From Flavobacteriales bacterium BRH_c54 (lineage in GTDB: Bacteria > Bacteroidota > Bacteroidia > Flavobacteriales_E > Vicingaceae): a DNA stretch of 64,000 bases. The stretch is taken from assembly GCA_000961845.1 (NCBI GenBank), contig LADZ01000060.1, positions 1-64,000 of the forward strand, given 5' to 3'. Positions 55,919-64,000 of this stretch are shown piece after piece; positions within the stretch are counted from its first letter, which is position 1, and the number at the start of each line of letters is the position of its first letter. The notes under the pieces were generated by a model. It made no database searches and was not told the DNA's origin. It saw only the letters and a list, made by a program, of their open reading frames with translations. Position numbers and translations under genes: made by a program.

Positions 55919-56923
55919 TTAACTTAGGTCGGAATATTTTTTTTCTTTCTTTACAAAGTAATGATAGAGAATACTTTTAGGATAAATTGTATCGGGAATT
56001 ATGTTCGTTTTAATCGGTTTTTCAGTCTTTTTGAACACATAAGCGTAAAAAGCAAAGTGAGCCTTAATAATGGCTGAAAAATGGCTTATTTTGCCTTCTG
56101 TAAGAAATTTAATGCCTGCCAAACCGTCTAAAAAAAGTCTTCCTAATAATACTCCAATCTTTTTACCTTGTGGTAAGTTTTTATACAACATTATTAGATT
56201 ATTCCTAAAATTTAAAAATGTTTTTTGTGGTTTTGATTTATGTAGCGTTCCTCCTCCAACATGAAAAACAGTAGATTGAGGTACATATTTAATTTTCTTT
56301 CCTATATTTTGAATTCTCCAGCACAAATCAATTTCCTCCATGTGTGCAAAGAAAAAAGGATCTAATCCGTTTAGTTGATGATAAACATCTGCTCTAACAA
56401 CCAAACAAGCTCCAGTTGCCCAAAAGATTTCTATTTCATCGTTATATTGTCCTTTATCCTCTTCTAAAGTTTCAAAAATTCTTCCTCTACAAAAAGGATA
56501 ACCATATTTGTCCATAAAACCTCCTGCTGCTCCGGCATATTCAAAATGTGTTTTTTGGTGGAAAGCTTTTATTTTTGGCTGACAAGCAGCCATATCATTA
56601 TCTTTTTTCAATACCTCTAAACAGGGTTGAAGCCAATTTTCCGTTACCTCAACATCCGAATTAAGCAACACGTAAACATCTGAATTAACTTGCTTCAGAG
56701 CTTCATTATACCCTTTAGCAAAACCGTAATTTTCAGCAAGCGTTATTATGCGTATTTGAGGGAAATTTTCCTTTAAAAAAGACAGTGAGTCATCTGTGGA
56801 GCAATTATCAGCCACAATAAGTTCTACAAAAGAAGTGTGTTCTATTAAGTTTGGCAGAAACTTTTCTAAAAAATGTTTTCCATTCCAATTTAAAATTACA
56901 ACAGCTACTGAATTCAAAGACAT
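55919..56923 (-). CDS. Family 2 glycosyltransferase
   Basis: 334 residues. The GT-A start VVILNWNGKHFLEKFLP, VADNCSTDDSLSFL and VYVLLNSDVEVTENW (acidic metal-binding site) are followed by WATGACLVVRADVYHQ and HMEEIDLCWRIQ, the rhamnosyltransferase-like acceptor region. It would add a sugar to a cell-surface glycan or lipid. A short hydrophobic tail (GVLLGRLFLDGLAGI) may anchor it. It lies 3 bases after the GWxTD gene and is probably co-transcribed with it. Confidence 0.88.
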   Translation of the reverse strand: MSLNSVAVVILNWNGKHFLEKFLPNLIEHTSFVELIVADNCSTDDSLSFLKENFPQIRIITLAENYGFAKGYNEALKQVNSDVYVLLNSDVEVTENWLQPCLEVLKKDNDMAACQPKIKAFHQKTHFEYAGAAGGFMDKYGYPFCRGRIFETLEEDKGQYNDEIEIFWATGACLVVRADVYHQLNGLDPFFFAHMEEIDLCWRIQNIGKKIKYVPQSTVFHVGGGTLHKSKPQKTFLNFRNNLIMLYKNLPQGKKIGVLLGRLFLDGLAGIKFLTEGKISHFSAIIKAHFAFYAYVFKKTEKPIKTNIIPDTIYPKSILYHYFVKKEKKYSDLS

Positions 56924-56926
56924 TTA

Positions 56927-58399
56927 TTATCGTGGGTTATTATAAAAATCATCAGCTCTTCCACCCCAATGTTGGCTATTGTTTTGCTCTTCCATATCTA
57001 CAGGCTGGTTGGTTCTTTTATGTAACTGAACTTTCCATTGAGGATTGTTTAATTCTCCCGGTAAATTGGAGTGTAATATTGGAAAATCATTGCTTACTAA
57101 ATCAGGGTTATAAAACACAAAACGAATATTACTAAAATTTTGAACTTTGTAATAATGCCATATTTCATAAGGATAAGCACTCGGTTCATTTTTCTGTTCT
57201 ACAATAGTATTTGGCTTACCATGCTTTAAATACACTCTTCCTCTATCAGTTTCATATCCTTTTTTAATGGCAGTACTGTATTCTTTATTTACAACCTCAA
57301 CTTCTTTTTTATATTCTTCCCAAGCTTCTTTTGGATTTTCCGCATCACGAGTAAACCAAAAATTATAAAAATATTTTTGCATCAACTCTTTATCCTTACC
57401 TTTTAGCTGGTTTCTAGCATAGTTTAACTCTATCGCTGTAGAAATTGGCTCTATACTTCTGATGTACTCTATAAGTTGTTCAACATCCATATCTATAACA
57501 AAAGTACTTTCAAAATCAACATTAGCGATATCAGGCACTAATGCCGGATTACTTCTTTGAAAAAAGACTTTTTTCTGCAACATTAATTCATTGGATTTAT
57601 CTCTGGCTTCAATTACCAAATTATAATTACCCGAAGCCAAATTAACAATATTGAAAGATTTTAGGATAATATTAACAGGCTTAGCCGATTCTCTTACGAA
57701 TCCTTTAAGATTGCCCACTACCGTATTTGTTTCGTATGATTCTATGGCATACGTTACCAAATAACTTTCATCTGTGCCCAACAATTTATCTGCATTATAT
57801 ATCTCTGCATAAAAAGCTATTTTTTCAATATCTTCAGGAAAAAAATCTGAGGTATAAGGCAAAATATCATATCCACTTTTAGAAATAATGGATTTAGTGG
57901 TAGTTTTTGATAAGGATTCAATAAATTCAACATCTGAGATATTCATTTTCTTATCGTTATAATTCACATTCAATACTTGTGTAGATTTAAAAGGTGTTAA
58001 CGTACTATTGACATCTCTAATGTTTATTTCAAACTCGTAGCTTCCATTAGGAATAGAAATTCTTTGTTGATCTATAAAGTTGGCGAGTATCACGGTGTCT
58101 TCATTTTCCGGACTGAGTAAATTATATTTTTTGAATTTTTTAATTTCTTCTCCTTGTTTAAACAGGTAAGTTATTTCTATTGTTCCTTGAAATTTATCAT
58201 TTTCATTTTTAAGATAATTGATAGAGCTACCTTCTACCGAAAGGTAAGTTTCTATATAAGGACCGTTTTCAGGAGAATAGAAAGTACAGTAAGTAAAATA
58301 GGCTTTTAGGTTTTGTGCCGTTAATTTATTGGCACTAACGAATAAAAATACAATTGAAAAAAGAACAATTAATTTTATTTTATAATTTTTTAATACCAC
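56927..58399 (-). CDS. GWxTD-domain secreted protein
   Basis: 490 residues with a signal peptide (IVLFSIVFLFVSANKLTAQ). The N-terminal half is made of beta-strands with Ig-like spacing. The C-terminal part resembles the GWxTD family (YFYNFWFTRDAENPKEAWEE, RGRVYLKHGKPNTIVEQ, YPYEIWHYY), although the literal GWxTD motif is replaced by FW...RD. Family members are conserved outer-surface or periplasmic proteins of Bacteroidota with no known reaction. It is transcribed with the glycosyltransferase. Confidence 0.82.
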   Translation of the reverse strand: MVLKNYKIKLIVLFSIVFLFVSANKLTAQNLKAYFTYCTFYSPENGPYIETYLSVEGSSINYLKNENDKFQGTIEITYLFKQGEEIKKFKKYNLLSPENEDTVILANFIDQQRISIPNGSYEFEINIRDVNSTLTPFKSTQVLNVNYNDKKMNISDVEFIESLSKTTTKSIISKSGYDILPYTSDFFPEDIEKIAFYAEIYNADKLLGTDESYLVTYAIESYETNTVVGNLKGFVRESAKPVNIILKSFNIVNLASGNYNLVIEARDKSNELMLQKKVFFQRSNPALVPDIANVDFESTFVIDMDVEQLIEYIRSIEPISTAIELNYARNQLKGKDKELMQKYFYNFWFTRDAENPKEAWEEYKKEVEVVNKEYSTAIKKGYETDRGRVYLKHGKPNTIVEQKNEPSAYPYEIWHYYKVQNFSNIRFVFYNPDLVSNDFPILHSNLPGELNNPQWKVQLHKRTNQPVDMEEQNNSQHWGGRADDFYNNPR

Positions 58400-58554
58400 C
58401 GATTTGAAATTAGATTTTAAAGTTTTTAATTATTGGTTTTATAAGTGCTTCAATATCAAAAAACATACCCAAAAAGCCAACAAGAATACAAAAATAACTA
58501 TTTATCTGTTAAGAGGGGATGAATATTTATTTTTTCAAAAAAATTAAAAAAACA

Positions 58555-58584
58555 TTTCATATTTAAAATCTATTGCTACTTTTG
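58555..58584 (+). promoter_or_regulatory. Promoter of tRNA-Ser(TGA)
   Basis: TTTC (one mismatch) at 58555-58558, 18 bases, then a perfect TACTTTTG at 58577-58584, followed by CAGC as before the other serine tRNA. The predicted start (near 58588) is next to the mature 5-prime end at 58589. Confidence 0.6.
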
Positions 58585-58588
58585 CAGC

Positions 58589-58676
58589 GGAGAAATGGCA
58601 GAGCGGTCGAATGCGGCAGTCTTGAAAACTGTTGTACCGCAAGGTACCGGGGGTTCGAATCCCTCTTTCTCCGCCA
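58589..58676 (+). tRNA. tRNA-Ser(TGA)
   Basis: 88 bases with encoded CCA. Acceptor GGAGAAA pairs with TTTCTCC; the anticodon loop CTTGAAA gives TGA, reading TCA and TCG/TCT by wobble. The long variable arm (GTACCGCAAGGTAC) is typical of serine tRNAs. Confidence 0.97.
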
Positions 58677-58684
58677 CACTAACG

Positions 58685-58719
58685 AAAGAAGCCCTTGATT
58701 TTCAAGGGCTTCTTTTTTT
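58685..58719 (+). terminator. Terminator after tRNA-Ser(TGA)
   Basis: AAAGAAGCCCTTGA pairs perfectly with TCAAGGGCTTCTTT around a TTT loop, with a further T run. It begins eight bases after the CCA. Confidence 0.9.
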
Positions 58720-58771
58720 CTAATTTGATTTACTTAATTTTGATCATGTTTTAAAGAAGAAAAAATCAATT

Positions 58772-59383
58772 ATGTCATTCAAAAAACTACTTCCTCCTAT
58801 AAAAAATGCCTTACAACATTTAAAGGTCGATACACCAACTTCTTTTCAAAAACAACTCATCCCTAAAATAAAAAGCGGTATTGATGTTATTGCTATTGCT
58901 GAAGAAGGTGCCGGAAAAACAACTACTTTAATTATTAACACTATTCAAAAATTAAAAGGAGAAGCTTTTGAAGATGTACCTAGAGCTTTAATTTTTGTAA
59001 AAGACAAAGAAGCAGCTTTAACCCTAGAAGAAGAGTTTAATAAGTTTACCAAATATACCGATTTAAGAATTTTTTGTGCTTATGAAGAAAGCACTATTCA
59101 ATTTCAAAAAGACACCATTTATACAGGAGTAGACATTGTTATTGGTACTCCAAAAAGATTAAATAAAATTTATTTCCAAAACGGGATTAACCTTACGGGT
59201 TTACAACTCTTATTAATTGAAGATGCTGATTTTTTGGAAGGAACCAGCTTTCATACAGAAATACACAGAATTGCAGAGAGCTTAAATAAATGTCAGTTTG
59301 TTGTTTTTAGCAATCATTTTGGTTCTAAAATAGAAAAACTGCAAGATTTATTTTTGGAACATGCAGAAGTCGTTAAATTGTAA
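58772..59383 (+). CDS. Orphan DEAD-box N-terminal domain, degenerate
   Basis: 203 residues, matching only the first RecA-like half of a DEAD-box RNA helicase: Q-motif-like TPTSFQKQLIPKI, Walker A AEEGAGKTT (residues 43-51), GTPKRL at about 125-130. The DEAD box itself reads Glu150-Asp-Ala-Asp in LLIEDADFLEG and the SAT motif is replaced by SNH, so ATPase action is doubtful. No second domain follows before the stop. It looks like a fixed stand-alone protein rather than a fresh break, since no remnant of the second domain lies downstream. Confidence 0.82.
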   Translation: MSFKKLLPPIKNALQHLKVDTPTSFQKQLIPKIKSGIDVIAIAEEGAGKTTTLIINTIQKLKGEAFEDVPRALIFVKDKEAALTLEEEFNKFTKYTDLRIFCAYEESTIQFQKDTIYTGVDIVIGTPKRLNKIYFQNGINLTGLQLLLIEDADFLEGTSFHTEIHRIAESLNKCQFVVFSNHFGSKIEKLQDLFLEHAEVVKL

Positions 59384-59411
59384 TAAAATGCTCTTTTAAT
59401 TATGTGGATAT

Positions 59412-59786
59412 TTAATTCAATATTTTTTTCATTGAATAAAACCCAATAACTCCTAAAAATGCACCTAAAGAGTTGGCAATAAAATCATACCAATCACCAT
59501 AACGGTTTATAAAAACATATTCTTGCAATAACTCTATTAAACCTCCTATCACTATACTAAAACTTATACTAAAAAAAATTTGTAGCTTACTGTTCAACAA
59601 AAATGAATGGGATTGTTTTGAAAAACCTAAAATACTCAAAAAGCTAAGTAAAGCATAAATGGCTAAGTGTACCAACTTATCAAACTCATCAAAAGGAGCT
59701 TCAGGCAAGCCTCTTCCCGGATAGCCGCTAAGCACAACAATAATGATGAGCCAAATCAATGCAGGTATAAAAGGTTTTAGTTTCAT
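59412..59786 (-). CDS. VanZ-like family membrane protein
   Basis: 124 residues with about four hydrophobic segments. It starts LKPFIPALIWLIIIVVLSGYPG, has FDEFDKLVHLAIYALLSFL and LLQEYVFINRYGDWYDFIANSLGAFLG, all typical of VanZ-like proteins. The family's role is uncertain; members are linked to glycopeptide tolerance and surface stress. In flavobacteria this gene lies after sprA and gcvH, as here. It follows gcvH by 82 bases with a terminator in between. Confidence 0.83.
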   Translation of the reverse strand: MKLKPFIPALIWLIIIVVLSGYPGRGLPEAPFDEFDKLVHLAIYALLSFLSILGFSKQSHSFLLNSKLQIFFSISFSIVIGGLIELLQEYVFINRYGDWYDFIANSLGAFLGVIGFYSMKKILN

Positions 59787-59803
59787 TACTTAGATAGGCA
59801 TAT

Positions 59804-59850
59804 AAAAAAACAACCAAGAATAGCTGTTTGGCTTACTTGGTTGTTTTTTT
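59804..59850 (-). terminator. Bidirectional terminator after gcvH
   Basis: AAAAAAACAACCAAG (59804-59818) pairs with CTTGGTTGTTTTTTT (59836-59850), with a 17-base loop. It lies 18 bases after the gcvH stop and precedes the VanZ-like gene. Confidence 0.88.
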
Positions 59851-59868
59851 ATATAAATACGATATATT

Positions 59869-60246
59869 TTATCCTATAATTGCTTTGTAATCTTCTGCTG
59901 AAAGTAAATCATTTACTTCATCAGGATTAGACATTTCAACTTTAATCATCCAGCCAGCTTCATAAGGGTTTTGGTTTACTGATTCAGGAGCAGATTCTAA
60001 ATCTCCATTTACTTCAATTACTTTACCTGAAAGTGGCATAAACAAATCAGAAACAGTTTTAACAGCTTCAACAGTTCCAAAAATAGCTTCTTTTTCAAGG
60101 TCATCTCCTTCTGTTTCAATTTCTACATACACAATATCACCCAACTCTCCTTGAGCAAAATCAGTAATTCCTATTGTTGCTACATTTCCTTCTATTTTAC
60201 ACCACTCATGATCTTTAGTGTACTTTAAATTTGCAGGTACATTCAT
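59869..60246 (-). CDS. gcvH: Glycine cleavage system H protein
   Basis: 125 residues, full length. The lipoylated Lys63 is in FGTVEAVKTVSDLFMPLSG, and the start YTKDHEWCKIEGNVATIGIT and the end ENPYEAGWMIKVEMSNP-like stretch are typical. The lipoyl arm carries the aminomethyl group between glycine dehydrogenase and the T protein. The other gcv genes are absent here; downstream position after sprA is a conserved flavobacterial arrangement, and it also may feed lipoate to other enzymes. Confidence 0.96.
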   Translation of the reverse strand: MNVPANLKYTKDHEWCKIEGNVATIGITDFAQGELGDIVYVEIETEGDDLEKEAIFGTVEAVKTVSDLFMPLSGKVIEVNGDLESAPESVNQNPYEAGWMIKVEMSNPDEVNDLLSAEDYKAIIG

Positions 60247-60357
60247 TTTACTTTACTTATTAAAAAATTATAATTGATTGATAATTCATTCGGCTAATTT
60301 ATGACTTTTTGCATAACCTCCAAAAATATTTAACTCGAAATATAAGTTAATAAGGAA

Positions 60358-63300
60358 TTATTGCGACAAAGTAAACCTCAAGCTAATTCCTGCATTGGTG
60401 TTAGAGGTTGGGAATGTGGTAGATATAAATGGCGTAGTAGATACATAATCATAAAAAGCTCTTAGGTTTAAAAACTGACTAATTCTGTAATCGGCAGTAA
60501 AACGAATAGACAATACTTTTTGTCCACTAGTCAATTGATTTACTTCTTCTACAATTTTTCTGATAATGGTTTCATTACTTCTTAAAGACACATCAACTCG
60601 GGCATCAATGTCGCTTCTTATTACTCTATTTTTAGAGAATGGAAAACGAACTTGCTTAAATTTATATCCTGTACCAACCGTCCATTCACTACCTTGAACT
60701 TCTGTAATTTGATTGTTATTTACACTCAATGCGGCATTTCTATCTTTTGCATATTCAATACGAATAAGCATACTGTTTTCTAAGGTCATATCTGCACCCA
60801 ATAACGGACTAAACTGCTCTGAAATAGAAACTCCCGAAATTTGATACTTAGAAATAAAGTTGCTATTAATATCTCTATTGGCTCTTCCATCTTCAAAATT
60901 TAAATTGGTAGTAAACGAGCTAACATTAAAAGTAGAACGATAAGAATGTGTTAATGTAAATTGTTTAAAAATAGTGGCTAACAGTGGTATTTTACTTAAT
61001 CCATCAAAAGTAATTCTCCAGTTAGGCATAGGAAGATATTTTTCAAAAGACTTAAGCGAAACCTTATCTCCCGATTTTCCTGAATATCCGGCAATAAAAG
61101 CAGGAATTAAAACCTCTTGAGATGTAGCTCCATATCCATCGGCATAAACATCATTAACCAACCCATTTGAATTAGCATCTTGAGCTCCTAATCTTTGCGA
61201 TATAATGGCTCTTTCTTCTAAAAATTTATCAAAAACTGATGATGAACGATCTTCACTATTGTTAGAGGCAAAAGCAGTTCTAATAGACACAAAAGACATA
61301 CTTAAATTACCTGTTTCTACTGGAGTTACAAAAAAGAAATCGTCTCTTCGTTCACCTCTTAATGAATCTGTTACAAAACCCGGTTGTACTTCAAAAAATT
61401 GCTGAGATAAATTGGTAGAATAATTTCTTGTTGCATTTAATTGAATTCGCAACGTATTAATAGGACGAAGTGTTGCTCTTAAATTATAATTTTCCGCATA
61501 AGTAGTATTATAATTATACATTAATGAATTCGACTGCAACCATTCTCTTTCTGCAGCACTCATAGCAAAATCATCTTCTTGCATACCGGAAATAAAATTA
61601 AACCCTGGAGCAGTAAACCCATTATTATACCCCATAATTTCTGTTTGCTGATTATAGCCCGGTAGCAATGTCCCTCTAGTTCTGGTATATGTCCCTGAAA
61701 TATTTTTCGGACTCATCAAGGTTATCCATAAAGGATCTAACGGATAAATTTTATCCTTCTCTCTCCACAATTCTACTTTTGTAGTATCTGAATCTTTAAA
61801 CTCTTTAGTATCAAAACGCTTAATTTCTACGGGTGGCAATCCGGGCTTCCATCCTTTTAATTTAGCATTTTCTGCATCTGTTTTATTAGGGTCGGGCTTT
61901 CTATTTCTTTGTGCTTTTTTTCTAGCTCTATCTCGTTGTCTTTTTTCTACTTCTTTTAAAAAGTTAATTTGGTTATAAAATTTAGTCATATTTAACTGAC
62001 TATTTAAGGTAACGGTATTAGAATTCTGAATAGTATTACCTAAAGTATCAGCTCCTATTGGTGCTCTTTGCCAATCGTAATCACCACCATATTTAGCCGT
62101 TAGTGTAGCAAAATCCATAAAAGGTAATTTGTCAATTGGTACGGTATAATTCAAATTAAATGTATGATGATAATGCATATTAGTTCCAAACTCTTTTATA
62201 CTCTGCATCACAGTATCTTTCCATGCACTATATTCATCCGGGTAATTTTTATCCACCCTACCTCCTGTTGGCCTCCCTTGAAAGTCTATAGGCTCATTAA
62301 TAACAGCATTATTAGTAGCTGTAAAATCAAATGTTAAGGCTTTGGTAATATCTTGACGATAGCCATAAATTCTATTCCAATTAAAATGTTTTTGATAATA
62401 CGTTGGTAAATCAAAATCGAAACCCGTATTATTTCTTGCTCTTCTTTGTGAATATTGTCTATCTATATCTGTCTGAAAGGAAAGCTGTTTAGGCATTAAA
62501 TAAAAATTAAAATCTTTAAGCAACTTAGCCTGTTTACCGTCTGCCATTTTAAGGTTTTCAAAAGGCTTATAATTTTTAGGGTTATTAGTAAATGAATAAG
62601 CAATTCCGCCTTTGTATGTTTTTCTAGTATCAAACTCTGTATCTATATCTCTAAATTGATATTCGGAATAACCATAATTAAGCGATATATTGGAAATATC
62701 ATAAAAACGATTTTTCTCTTTACCTTTTGCCGGTAATTTACGCACATTAGTAAAATTAATACTCTTCCTACTTGTAACAGTTTGTGTCCTTTCCGCCAAA
62801 GAATCTCTTTCTTGCTGACTAAAAAGATCGCTGCTTAATTGGTCTTTTAATTCAATGTCGGGGTCTAATGGATTGTATTTTGGTGTGACAATTTCTTTAG
62901 AGTTACTATAATATACTGGCAAACTTATTCCAATTTTTTCAGGAATAAATTTACCCATTTCCACACTGGTAGAAACATCATAAGATTTAATAGTTTCTAG
63001 TTGTCTTTCATTTAATTTTTGATCAACACTACCAAAACCTGGTGTGCTATAAGCTCCAGCTAAAGTCATTGTGCCCAAATCTGCTAACTGAGCTGTTAAA
63101 CGACCCCTTGTTGCCCAACCGCCTTCATTATCAAACTCTGTCATTCTTAATTCGTTTACCCATACTTCTGCACATTTAGCCAAGCCATCGTCATCTACTG
63201 CAGTAGAATTAGATTGCTTACTATTTCTAATCCCTATCATAAACACTTTTACATTGGCCAAGTTCGGATTACCTTTAATCCTCATTTTATTATTTCCATC

Positions 63301-64000
63301 TTCTTGCTCATAAGGTCTTATAATAAGCACTCCTGAATTTGGATCTCCCAACAAACTATTTCTCAACATTTTCATATCAGTTAGTAATGAAAATTTCAAA
63401 TCAATTTCATTTTCATTAGGCCAAACAATTTCTCTATCAGACTGGTTTGAAGTATTTTCAGTATCATATCTTCCCGGAGGAGTAACTTTTAAAGGTACTT
63501 CATATTCATAATAATTATCATTAAAGTCTGTTCCCATACGGATAAATACAGATAAATCACCATCATTCAAAGGAATAGTTGGATTACTTTCTTGAGCATG
63601 AACAAACATTTTTAATCTTTTATACCTTCTTAAATCCTGATCCATCACTTTAAAAGCTGCTCTAGCATCTCCATCTTTTAGATTACATACATTTAAGGAT
63701 AATGATTGTTCATTTAACTGACGTAAGGTTGCTCCTGTTGATGGATTTGGATTTAACTCTCTATCAATTCCAGGTGGTATAATATAATTTACGGGAGTTT
63801 TCTCACTATTTTCTTCTACATTTACTGCTCCTACAATAAAAGTTGTCTCATCATCATCATTTCCTATATAATCTCCCGGATTTAATAGAGTTTTAGTGTA
63901 CTGCCTCCACTCTCCTCTTATTAAATCTAATCGAGCAAAACGCAACACCACTTTCTCGTTAAATCCTTTCATAAACATACGCATAAAACGAATGGATTTA
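60358..64000 (-). CDS. sprA: Type IX secretion translocon SprA, C-terminal part
   Basis: More than 1,200 residues of the C-terminal part; the frame is still open at the right edge (reading KSIRFMRMFMKGF), so the ATG at 63984 is internal. The product is a giant beta-barrel of about 36 strands that forms the outer-membrane pore for proteins with type IX sorting domains. Repeated aromatic beta-strands (YGYSEYQFRDIDTEFDTRK, NLNYTVPIDKLPF) and the final ISLRFTLSQ fit a barrel closing strand. The hydrolase encoded at 14483-15898 is a likely cargo. Downstream lie gcvH and the VanZ-like gene. Confidence 0.92.
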   Translation of the reverse strand, partial: KSIRFMRMFMKGFNEKVVLRFARLDLIRGEWRQYTKTLLNPGDYIGNDDDETTFIVGAVNVEENSEKTPVNYIIPPGIDRELNPNPSTGATLRQLNEQSLSLNVCNLKDGDARAAFKVMDQDLRRYKRLKMFVHAQESNPTIPLNDGDLSVFIRMGTDFNDNYYEYEVPLKVTPPGRYDTENTSNQSDREIVWPNENEIDLKFSLLTDMKMLRNSLLGDPNSGVLIIRPYEQEDGNNKMRIKGNPNLANVKVFMIGIRNSKQSNSTAVDDDGLAKCAEVWVNELRMTEFDNEGGWATRGRLTAQLADLGTMTLAGAYSTPGFGSVDQKLNERQLETIKSYDVSTSVEMGKFIPEKIGISLPVYYSNSKEIVTPKYNPLDPDIELKDQLSSDLFSQQERDSLAERTQTVTSRKSINFTNVRKLPAKGKEKNRFYDISNISLNYGYSEYQFRDIDTEFDTRKTYKGGIAYSFTNNPKNYKPFENLKMADGKQAKLLKDFNFYLMPKQLSFQTDIDRQYSQRRARNNTGFDFDLPTYYQKHFNWNRIYGYRQDITKALTFDFTATNNAVINEPIDFQGRPTGGRVDKNYPDEYSAWKDTVMQSIKEFGTNMHYHHTFNLNYTVPIDKLPFMDFATLTAKYGGDYDWQRAPIGADTLGNTIQNSNTVTLNSQLNMTKFYNQINFLKEVEKRQRDRARKKAQRNRKPDPNKTDAENAKLKGWKPGLPPVEIKRFDTKEFKDSDTTKVELWREKDKIYPLDPLWITLMSPKNISGTYTRTRGTLLPGYNQQTEIMGYNNGFTAPGFNFISGMQEDDFAMSAAEREWLQSNSLMYNYNTTYAENYNLRATLRPINTLRIQLNATRNYSTNLSQQFFEVQPGFVTDSLRGERRDDFFFVTPVETGNLSMSFVSIRTAFASNNSEDRSSSVFDKFLEERAIISQRLGAQDANSNGLVNDVYADGYGATSQEVLIPAFIAGYSGKSGDKVSLKSFEKYLPMPNWRITFDGLSKIPLLATIFKQFTLTHSYRSTFNVSSFTTNLNFEDGRANRDINSNFISKYQISGVSISEQFSPLLGADMTLENSMLIRIEYAKDRNAALSVNNNQITEVQGSEWTVGTGYKFKQVRFPFSKNRVIRSDIDARVDVSLRSNETIIRKIVEEVNQLTSGQKVLSIRFTADYRISQFLNLRAFYDYVSTTPFISTTFPTSNTNAGISLRFTLSQ

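Follow-up and report, generated by a model that had tools for sequence, protein, structure and literature searches.

In DEAD-box proteins, the glutamine of the Q motif serves in adenine recognition, motif Ia and the GG motif make canonical RNA contacts, and SAT together with the fourth position of motif II couples the first RecA domain (RecA1) to the second (RecA2). The canonical RhlE/CshA-like helicases share the RecA1 fold, the Q motif, Walker A and part of motif Ib with the protein described here, which differs from them in having no RecA2, DEAD, SAT, GG or PTREL. Pseudohelicases, for their part, are known already and seldom described. The DEAD-box-type example, Utp25, is eukaryotic; according to passages of PMC9539457, it acts in ribosome assembly, has two RecA domains and keeps motif Ia and partial motifs Q, IV, V and VI. 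On the same passages, our protein resembles Utp25 in its DEAD-box descent, the loss of the DEAD sequence and the retention of the fold, and differs in having one RecA domain instead of two. Among bacterial proteins, Deinococcus PriA is termed a pseudohelicase in passages of PMC4504706, which present it as a DNA replication-restart protein and not a DEAD-box one. Here we describe a bacterial lineage in two forms, one with RecA1 only and one with two domains, both apparently new within the open-access literature searched; the searches brought up neither a RecA1-only DEAD-box family in Bacteroidota nor the two-domain family, which is weak evidence of absence.

The short form was found in a window of 64,000 nucleotides (the whole stretch of DNA analysed) from Flavobacteriales bacterium BRH_c54, where it shows the following features:

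58589..58676, + strand: tRNA-Ser (TGA), the upstream neighbour, outside the system
58684..58716, + strand: terminator-like hairpin between tRNA-Ser and the pseudohelicase gene
58735..58742, + strand: TAATTTTG, just 5' of the ATG, matching TANNTTTG, which we take to be the Bacteroidota -7 promoter box; a weak assignment, as the + strand of the window has 52 matches of this kind
58772..59383, + strand: putative RecA1-only pseudohelicase gene, 203 aa (ORF with ATG start, Pfam, AlphaFold2, structure alignment)
58847..58849, + strand: Gln 26 of the Q motif, present in 155/157 family members
58898..58921, + strand: Walker A, AEEGAGKT, residues 43-50, with Lys 49 in 154/157
59219..59230, + strand: motif II, EDAD instead of DEAD, residues 150-153, with Asp in the second position in 151/157
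59309..59317, + strand: position of motif III, SNH instead of SAT, residues 180-182, with SAT in 0/157

The hairpin that separates it from tRNA-Ser suggests that the 203-aa gene probably forms its own, separate transcription unit. Downstream, a 124-aa ORF on the opposite strand, VanZ-like by eye, ends 28 nt away, and a search of Rfam over positions 58000-60400 gave nothing besides the tRNA. Further on, close to the window end, lies a large ORF of ~1208 aa (60358-63984, - strand), presumably a secretion or gliding outer-membrane protein.

The original prediction had read from the sequence a 203-residue protein with a Walker A, EDAD and SNH that ends after RecA1, and all of this is there. The Pfam DEAD profile matches residues 23-186 (E 1.4e-23) over its positions 1-163 of 167, so the RecA1 domain is complete, and it was found in 42/42 family members tested. 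An AlphaFold2 model built from a 42-row family alignment reached a mean pLDDT of 93.7 and a pTM of 0.90. The top Foldseek match of this model was 2gxs, the N-terminal domain of Hera with AMP, and VIA-align gave Z values of ~28-30 across ~200 residues against many solved RecA1 domains. According to their entry titles, the solved isolated RecA1 domains 2gxs, 6aic and 2oxc contain AMP or ADP. By the Pfam match, the structure match and the trees described below, the protein belongs to the DEAD-box superfamily by descent.

Regarding the second domain, a RecA2 profile run over the six frames of positions 56000-62000 gave a best E of only 0.89, while it reached 1e-72 and 4e-66 at two positive control loci; the claim that no second-domain remnant is present thus stands. 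Elsewhere in the genome there is no stand-alone RecA2 ORF, as 12/12 Helicase_C matches fall in frames of at least 406 aa, and on this ground we ruled out, for this genome, a split helicase with its RecA2 in trans. A search of its own genome gave four hits with E no higher than 1, one being the protein itself and the remaining three lying in frames of 406-593 aa with 23-29% identity. Its best NCBIfam match is RhlE1, with 100 bits, far short of the cut-off of 750 bits. A DEAD-box RNA helicase is defined by two RecA domains, with motifs IV-VI in the second, and by DEAD and SAT in motifs II and III. None of these is found here and, by these defining features, the 203-aa protein is no DEAD-box helicase, as had been proposed when it was said not to be a normal one.

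We then asked what is kept in the family. A total of 223 loci were typed, giving 202 short and 19 full-length proteins and 2 without a BLAST match (both full-length by a search of their own genome); the proportion 202/223 is no frequency estimate, many loci having been fetched as best hits. With duplicates removed, 157 distinct short proteins remained. The Q motif and Walker A expected of a DEAD-box helicase are retained: Gln 26 is found in 155 of them, Gly 48 in 156, Lys 49 in 154, and Thr/Ser 50 and Thr 126 in all 157. Motif II reads EDAE in 50, DDAD in 38, DDAE in 24, EDAD in 8 and DEAD in 1, with the rest scattered. Its first position is acidic in 155/157 (D 81, E 74) and its second in 152/157 (Asp 151, Glu 1, with Asn in the other 5), so that the rule of the lineage is (E/D)-D-A-x. 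Hence, the swapped EDAD that the prediction had put forward is present in this protein, but as one variant and not as a defining trait. The catalytic Glu of motif II, found in 20/20 canonical helicases, occurs in 1/157 short proteins, and neither SAT nor Gly at the first GG site occurs in any of the 157. When compared with the 20 canonical rows, which are the whole canonical side of this comparison, the short clade has lost most of motif Ia PTREL, GG, the Gly of TPGR and the AT of SAT. The TP of motif Ib is retained, and Lys 4, Lys 34 and Lys 79 have been gained; of the family-specific lysines, K5 is found in 156/157 and K34 in 154/157.

The residues of the Q motif and P-loop are therefore kept while the catalytic and RNA-coupling ones are not, which points to selection on the adenine and phosphate pocket, and this is our main ground for considering the protein a nucleotide-binding pseudohelicase. 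A helicase fold, lost catalytic residues and a gene under selection (see below) are what is expected of a pseudohelicase, and pseudoenzyme, one of the labels offered initially, is the one that fits best. We think it probable, judging from the sequences, that the protein is a conserved pseudohelicase module, an adenine-nucleotide-bound, non-hydrolysing RecA1 domain that binds a partner. The RecA1 domain would still bind an adenine nucleotide but would not unwind RNA; nor would it hydrolyse the nucleotide productively, since the catalytic Glu is missing, as is the arginine finger of RecA2. Its function would lie in the contact with a partner, be it a protein or a ribonucleoprotein, and this contact may depend on the nucleotide. 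Three observations speak against this reading: no partner emerges from the flanking genes across 80 loci, the gene gave no match in 3/6 species of the window's genus, and carboxylates are left in motif II (see below). With this family, nature provides a setting in which to see what RecA1 on its own is capable of when no hydrolysis takes place.

One could argue that the nucleotide is irrelevant and that the RecA1 fold serves as a binding surface, as a pure structural scaffold or an RNA-binding chaperone. The erosion of motifs II and III agrees with this main rival, as does the retention of the TP of motif Ib, and the family-specific Lys 4, 5, 34 and 79 could make a basic patch. However, conservation is among the highest at Q26 and K49, two residues that a scaffold could do without, and motif Ia PTREL and GG are gone, so we regard it as possible but rather unlikely. 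We hold equally tentatively the idea of a helicase turned adenine-nucleotide sensor, in which RecA1, with its own conserved lysines K4, K5, K34 and K79, would be a switch that reads the level of ATP or of ADP/AMP and, depending on it, attaches to RNA or the ribosome; it would have arisen, and this is just as doubtful, by decay of catalysis in the two-domain form, followed by the dropping of RecA2.

The gene neighbourhoods were compared in a scan of genome contigs, made with a 16-row alignment as the query and without a length filter, from which 80/90 confirmed candidates were kept. No gene is common to more than 14/80 short-form loci, or to more than 25/100 in a widened set. The neighbours are conserved only locally, within genera, and for want of a widely shared one in the 80 and 100 loci we rejected an operon partner identified by neighbourhood. 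As a local pattern, in genus g73 (L203-L213) the short gene directly follows a response-regulator-like gene in 11/11 loci examined, and this is mostly preceded by GrpE- and DnaJ-like genes (names given by eye).

In 9/80 loci, the short gene has a DEAD-box gene no more than 6 kb away, and in three of them (L067, L068 and L078) this gene is directly upstream on the same strand, at 33-60 nt. These cases would favour a trans-acting subunit or decoy that modulates a full-length DEAD-box helicase by associating with its RecA2 or with its RNP partner. But they amount to few independent cases, because Flavobacteriales MAGs that look related account for 7 of the 9, and SAT and the fourth position of motif II, through which RecA1 is coupled to RecA2, are not conserved; we consider this explanation improbable. 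In L067, L070, L072, L073, L077 and L078, the helicase found upstream, at no more than 6 kb from the short gene, has ~433 aa, and in the three of these that were aligned motif II is DEFD. L068 has a DEAD-box helicase, ~1.2 kb ahead of the short gene, in two ORFs (237 + 134 aa, RecA1-like and RecA2-like), owing to a frameshift, an assembly error or a true split. A role in a defence system was also rejected, since the single match given by PADLOC, to HamB, covers only residues 12-61 on a profile of 836 positions (E 0.00067, 15.8 bits).

Among the full-length loci we detected a second group, formed by 15 two-domain proteins with frames of 432-493 aa (L235-L249). Their Walker A is PEGxGKTT-like and the nucleotide pocket is kept, while motif II is eroded (DDAx, DGAD, DNAE and similar), SAT has mostly become TEV or SEV, and motifs V (ARGxD) and VI (HRIGRTGR) are gone in 15/15. 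A basic C-terminal tail, AFHxKK...YN, is kept (AYH in one). For Pfam Helicase_C, two of these proteins obtain 30.8 and 22.7 bits (cut-off 23.5), compared to 115.5 for a canonical one; the Pfam UTP25 match is below the cut-off, and neither Pfam nor NCBIfam has a model of the family. A profile made from six members found it in 15/395 genomes of the class, with 491-743 bits (the next score was 332); 13 of these genomes belong to family f40 and 2 to genus g10, which is part of the window's family. The short form shares the PEGxGKTT-like Walker A and the eroded motifs II and III with this group, but has neither its eroded RecA2 nor its basic tail (AFHxKK...YNY).

A 95-row tree places the 57 short proteins in one clade (100/96) and the 15 two-domain degenerate ones in another (100/97), with the 23 canonical helicases beyond them (100/100); owing to the length of the stem branches, long-branch effects may act on this grouping. 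An 86-row tree agrees with it. Both supersede a tree of 57 short and 20 full-length rows that left out 11/21 full-length loci, and in which the nearest helicases were those of Bacteroidota L012, L127, L128 and L130-L133; of the 11 loci added later, 7 carry the two-domain degenerate form or duplicate it (among these 7, two pairs each represent a single gene). Sequence and tree together give DEAD-box descent, one family without RecA2 and a two-domain, eroded sister. Since the sister group of the short form, as placed by these alignments, is a two-domain family with motifs eroded in both halves, catalysis was probably lost before, or with, RecA2. Given that the canonical rows include E. coli helicases, the most parsimonious history would be a single loss of catalysis in a two-domain ancestor followed by a single loss of RecA2. 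Eight two-domain loci have no flanking gene in common with the window, which argues that the short form is not a truncation in place. In the same 395 genomes, the short form is found in at least 21 and the two-domain form in 15, with an overlap of 0; as 0.8 would be expected by chance, this is uninformative and we do not propose that the two exclude each other.

The carboxylates kept at motif II positions 1 and 2 (acidic in 155 and 152 of 157, as given above) would allow for weak hydrolysis, and an active minimal ATPase could be imagined with Asp as the general base in place of Glu and with the arginine finger coming from an oligomer or a partner. Yet SAT is gone, the two-domain sisters lack the arginine-finger motif VI in 15/15 and the genome has no stand-alone RecA2, so this is a very remote option, and the ATPase activity that had been suggested for the protein is unlikely. 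The RNA binding suggested along with it would have to manage without motif Ia and GG.

Returning to the proposed partner-binding pseudohelicase, its gene is widespread. In the scan, 79/79 loci, among the matches listed, stop within 13 codons of the match, with open frames of 203-263 aa, and the named records are all Bacteroidota, including Flavobacteriaceae, Crocinitomicaceae, Vicingaceae, Marinilabiliaceae and Prolixibacteraceae. The short form is present in 16/46 genomes of the window's order and in 29/395 genomes of a draw from the phylum, with a clean score gap (at least 229 bits vs 177.6 for the next). It occurs in 140/150 genomes of g73, and in 78/249 genomes and 75/235 genera of the family holding that genus. 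The dN/dS values (NG86) of the three closest orthologues are 0.066, 0.092 and 0.118, with dS saturated for pairs with G021, which indicates that the ORF is not due to chance and is under strong purifying selection. It is, then, an old conserved family, neither a recent truncation nor a single-genome oddity, and where the prediction spoke of a fragment we find a fixed, widely conserved protein; the phylogeny of short homologues that it had called for puts them in a single clade. A recent truncation or sequencing error, that is, a decaying helicase gene, would fit the patchy presence inside the window's genus but is already contradicted, practically beyond doubt, by the shared end point of the 79 loci, the purifying selection and the retention in g73. 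Pfam sees the short form merely as a 'DEAD/DEAH box helicase', and annotations of ~200-aa helicases in Bacteroidota are probably misleading.

Within its own genus, the short form is present in 3/6 species. The gene is dispensable, as the other three gave no match at E 1e-25 (one of these genomes is 87% complete). An intact two-domain helicase at the same locus in close relatives, which would have spoken for a truncation, was looked for and none was seen: congeners G002 and G004 have the same short gene between the 124-aa neighbour and tRNA-Ser, and G001, G003 and G005 have no trace of it beside the 124-aa neighbour. A mobile-element origin was rejected, as the matches in the phage and plasmid collections (8 and 126 records, respectively) are no more than distant helicases, all below 60% identity and at 24-34% among the matches listed. 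Two copies of the short gene per genome were observed in G826 and G985. Finally, the copy of G021 (L007 / L273) has 70% identity to that of the window, while the copies of its congeners have 50-56%, and it clusters with the window sequence (100/98 in the 95-row tree), a pattern due either to horizontal transfer or to an artefact of how the genera are delimited.
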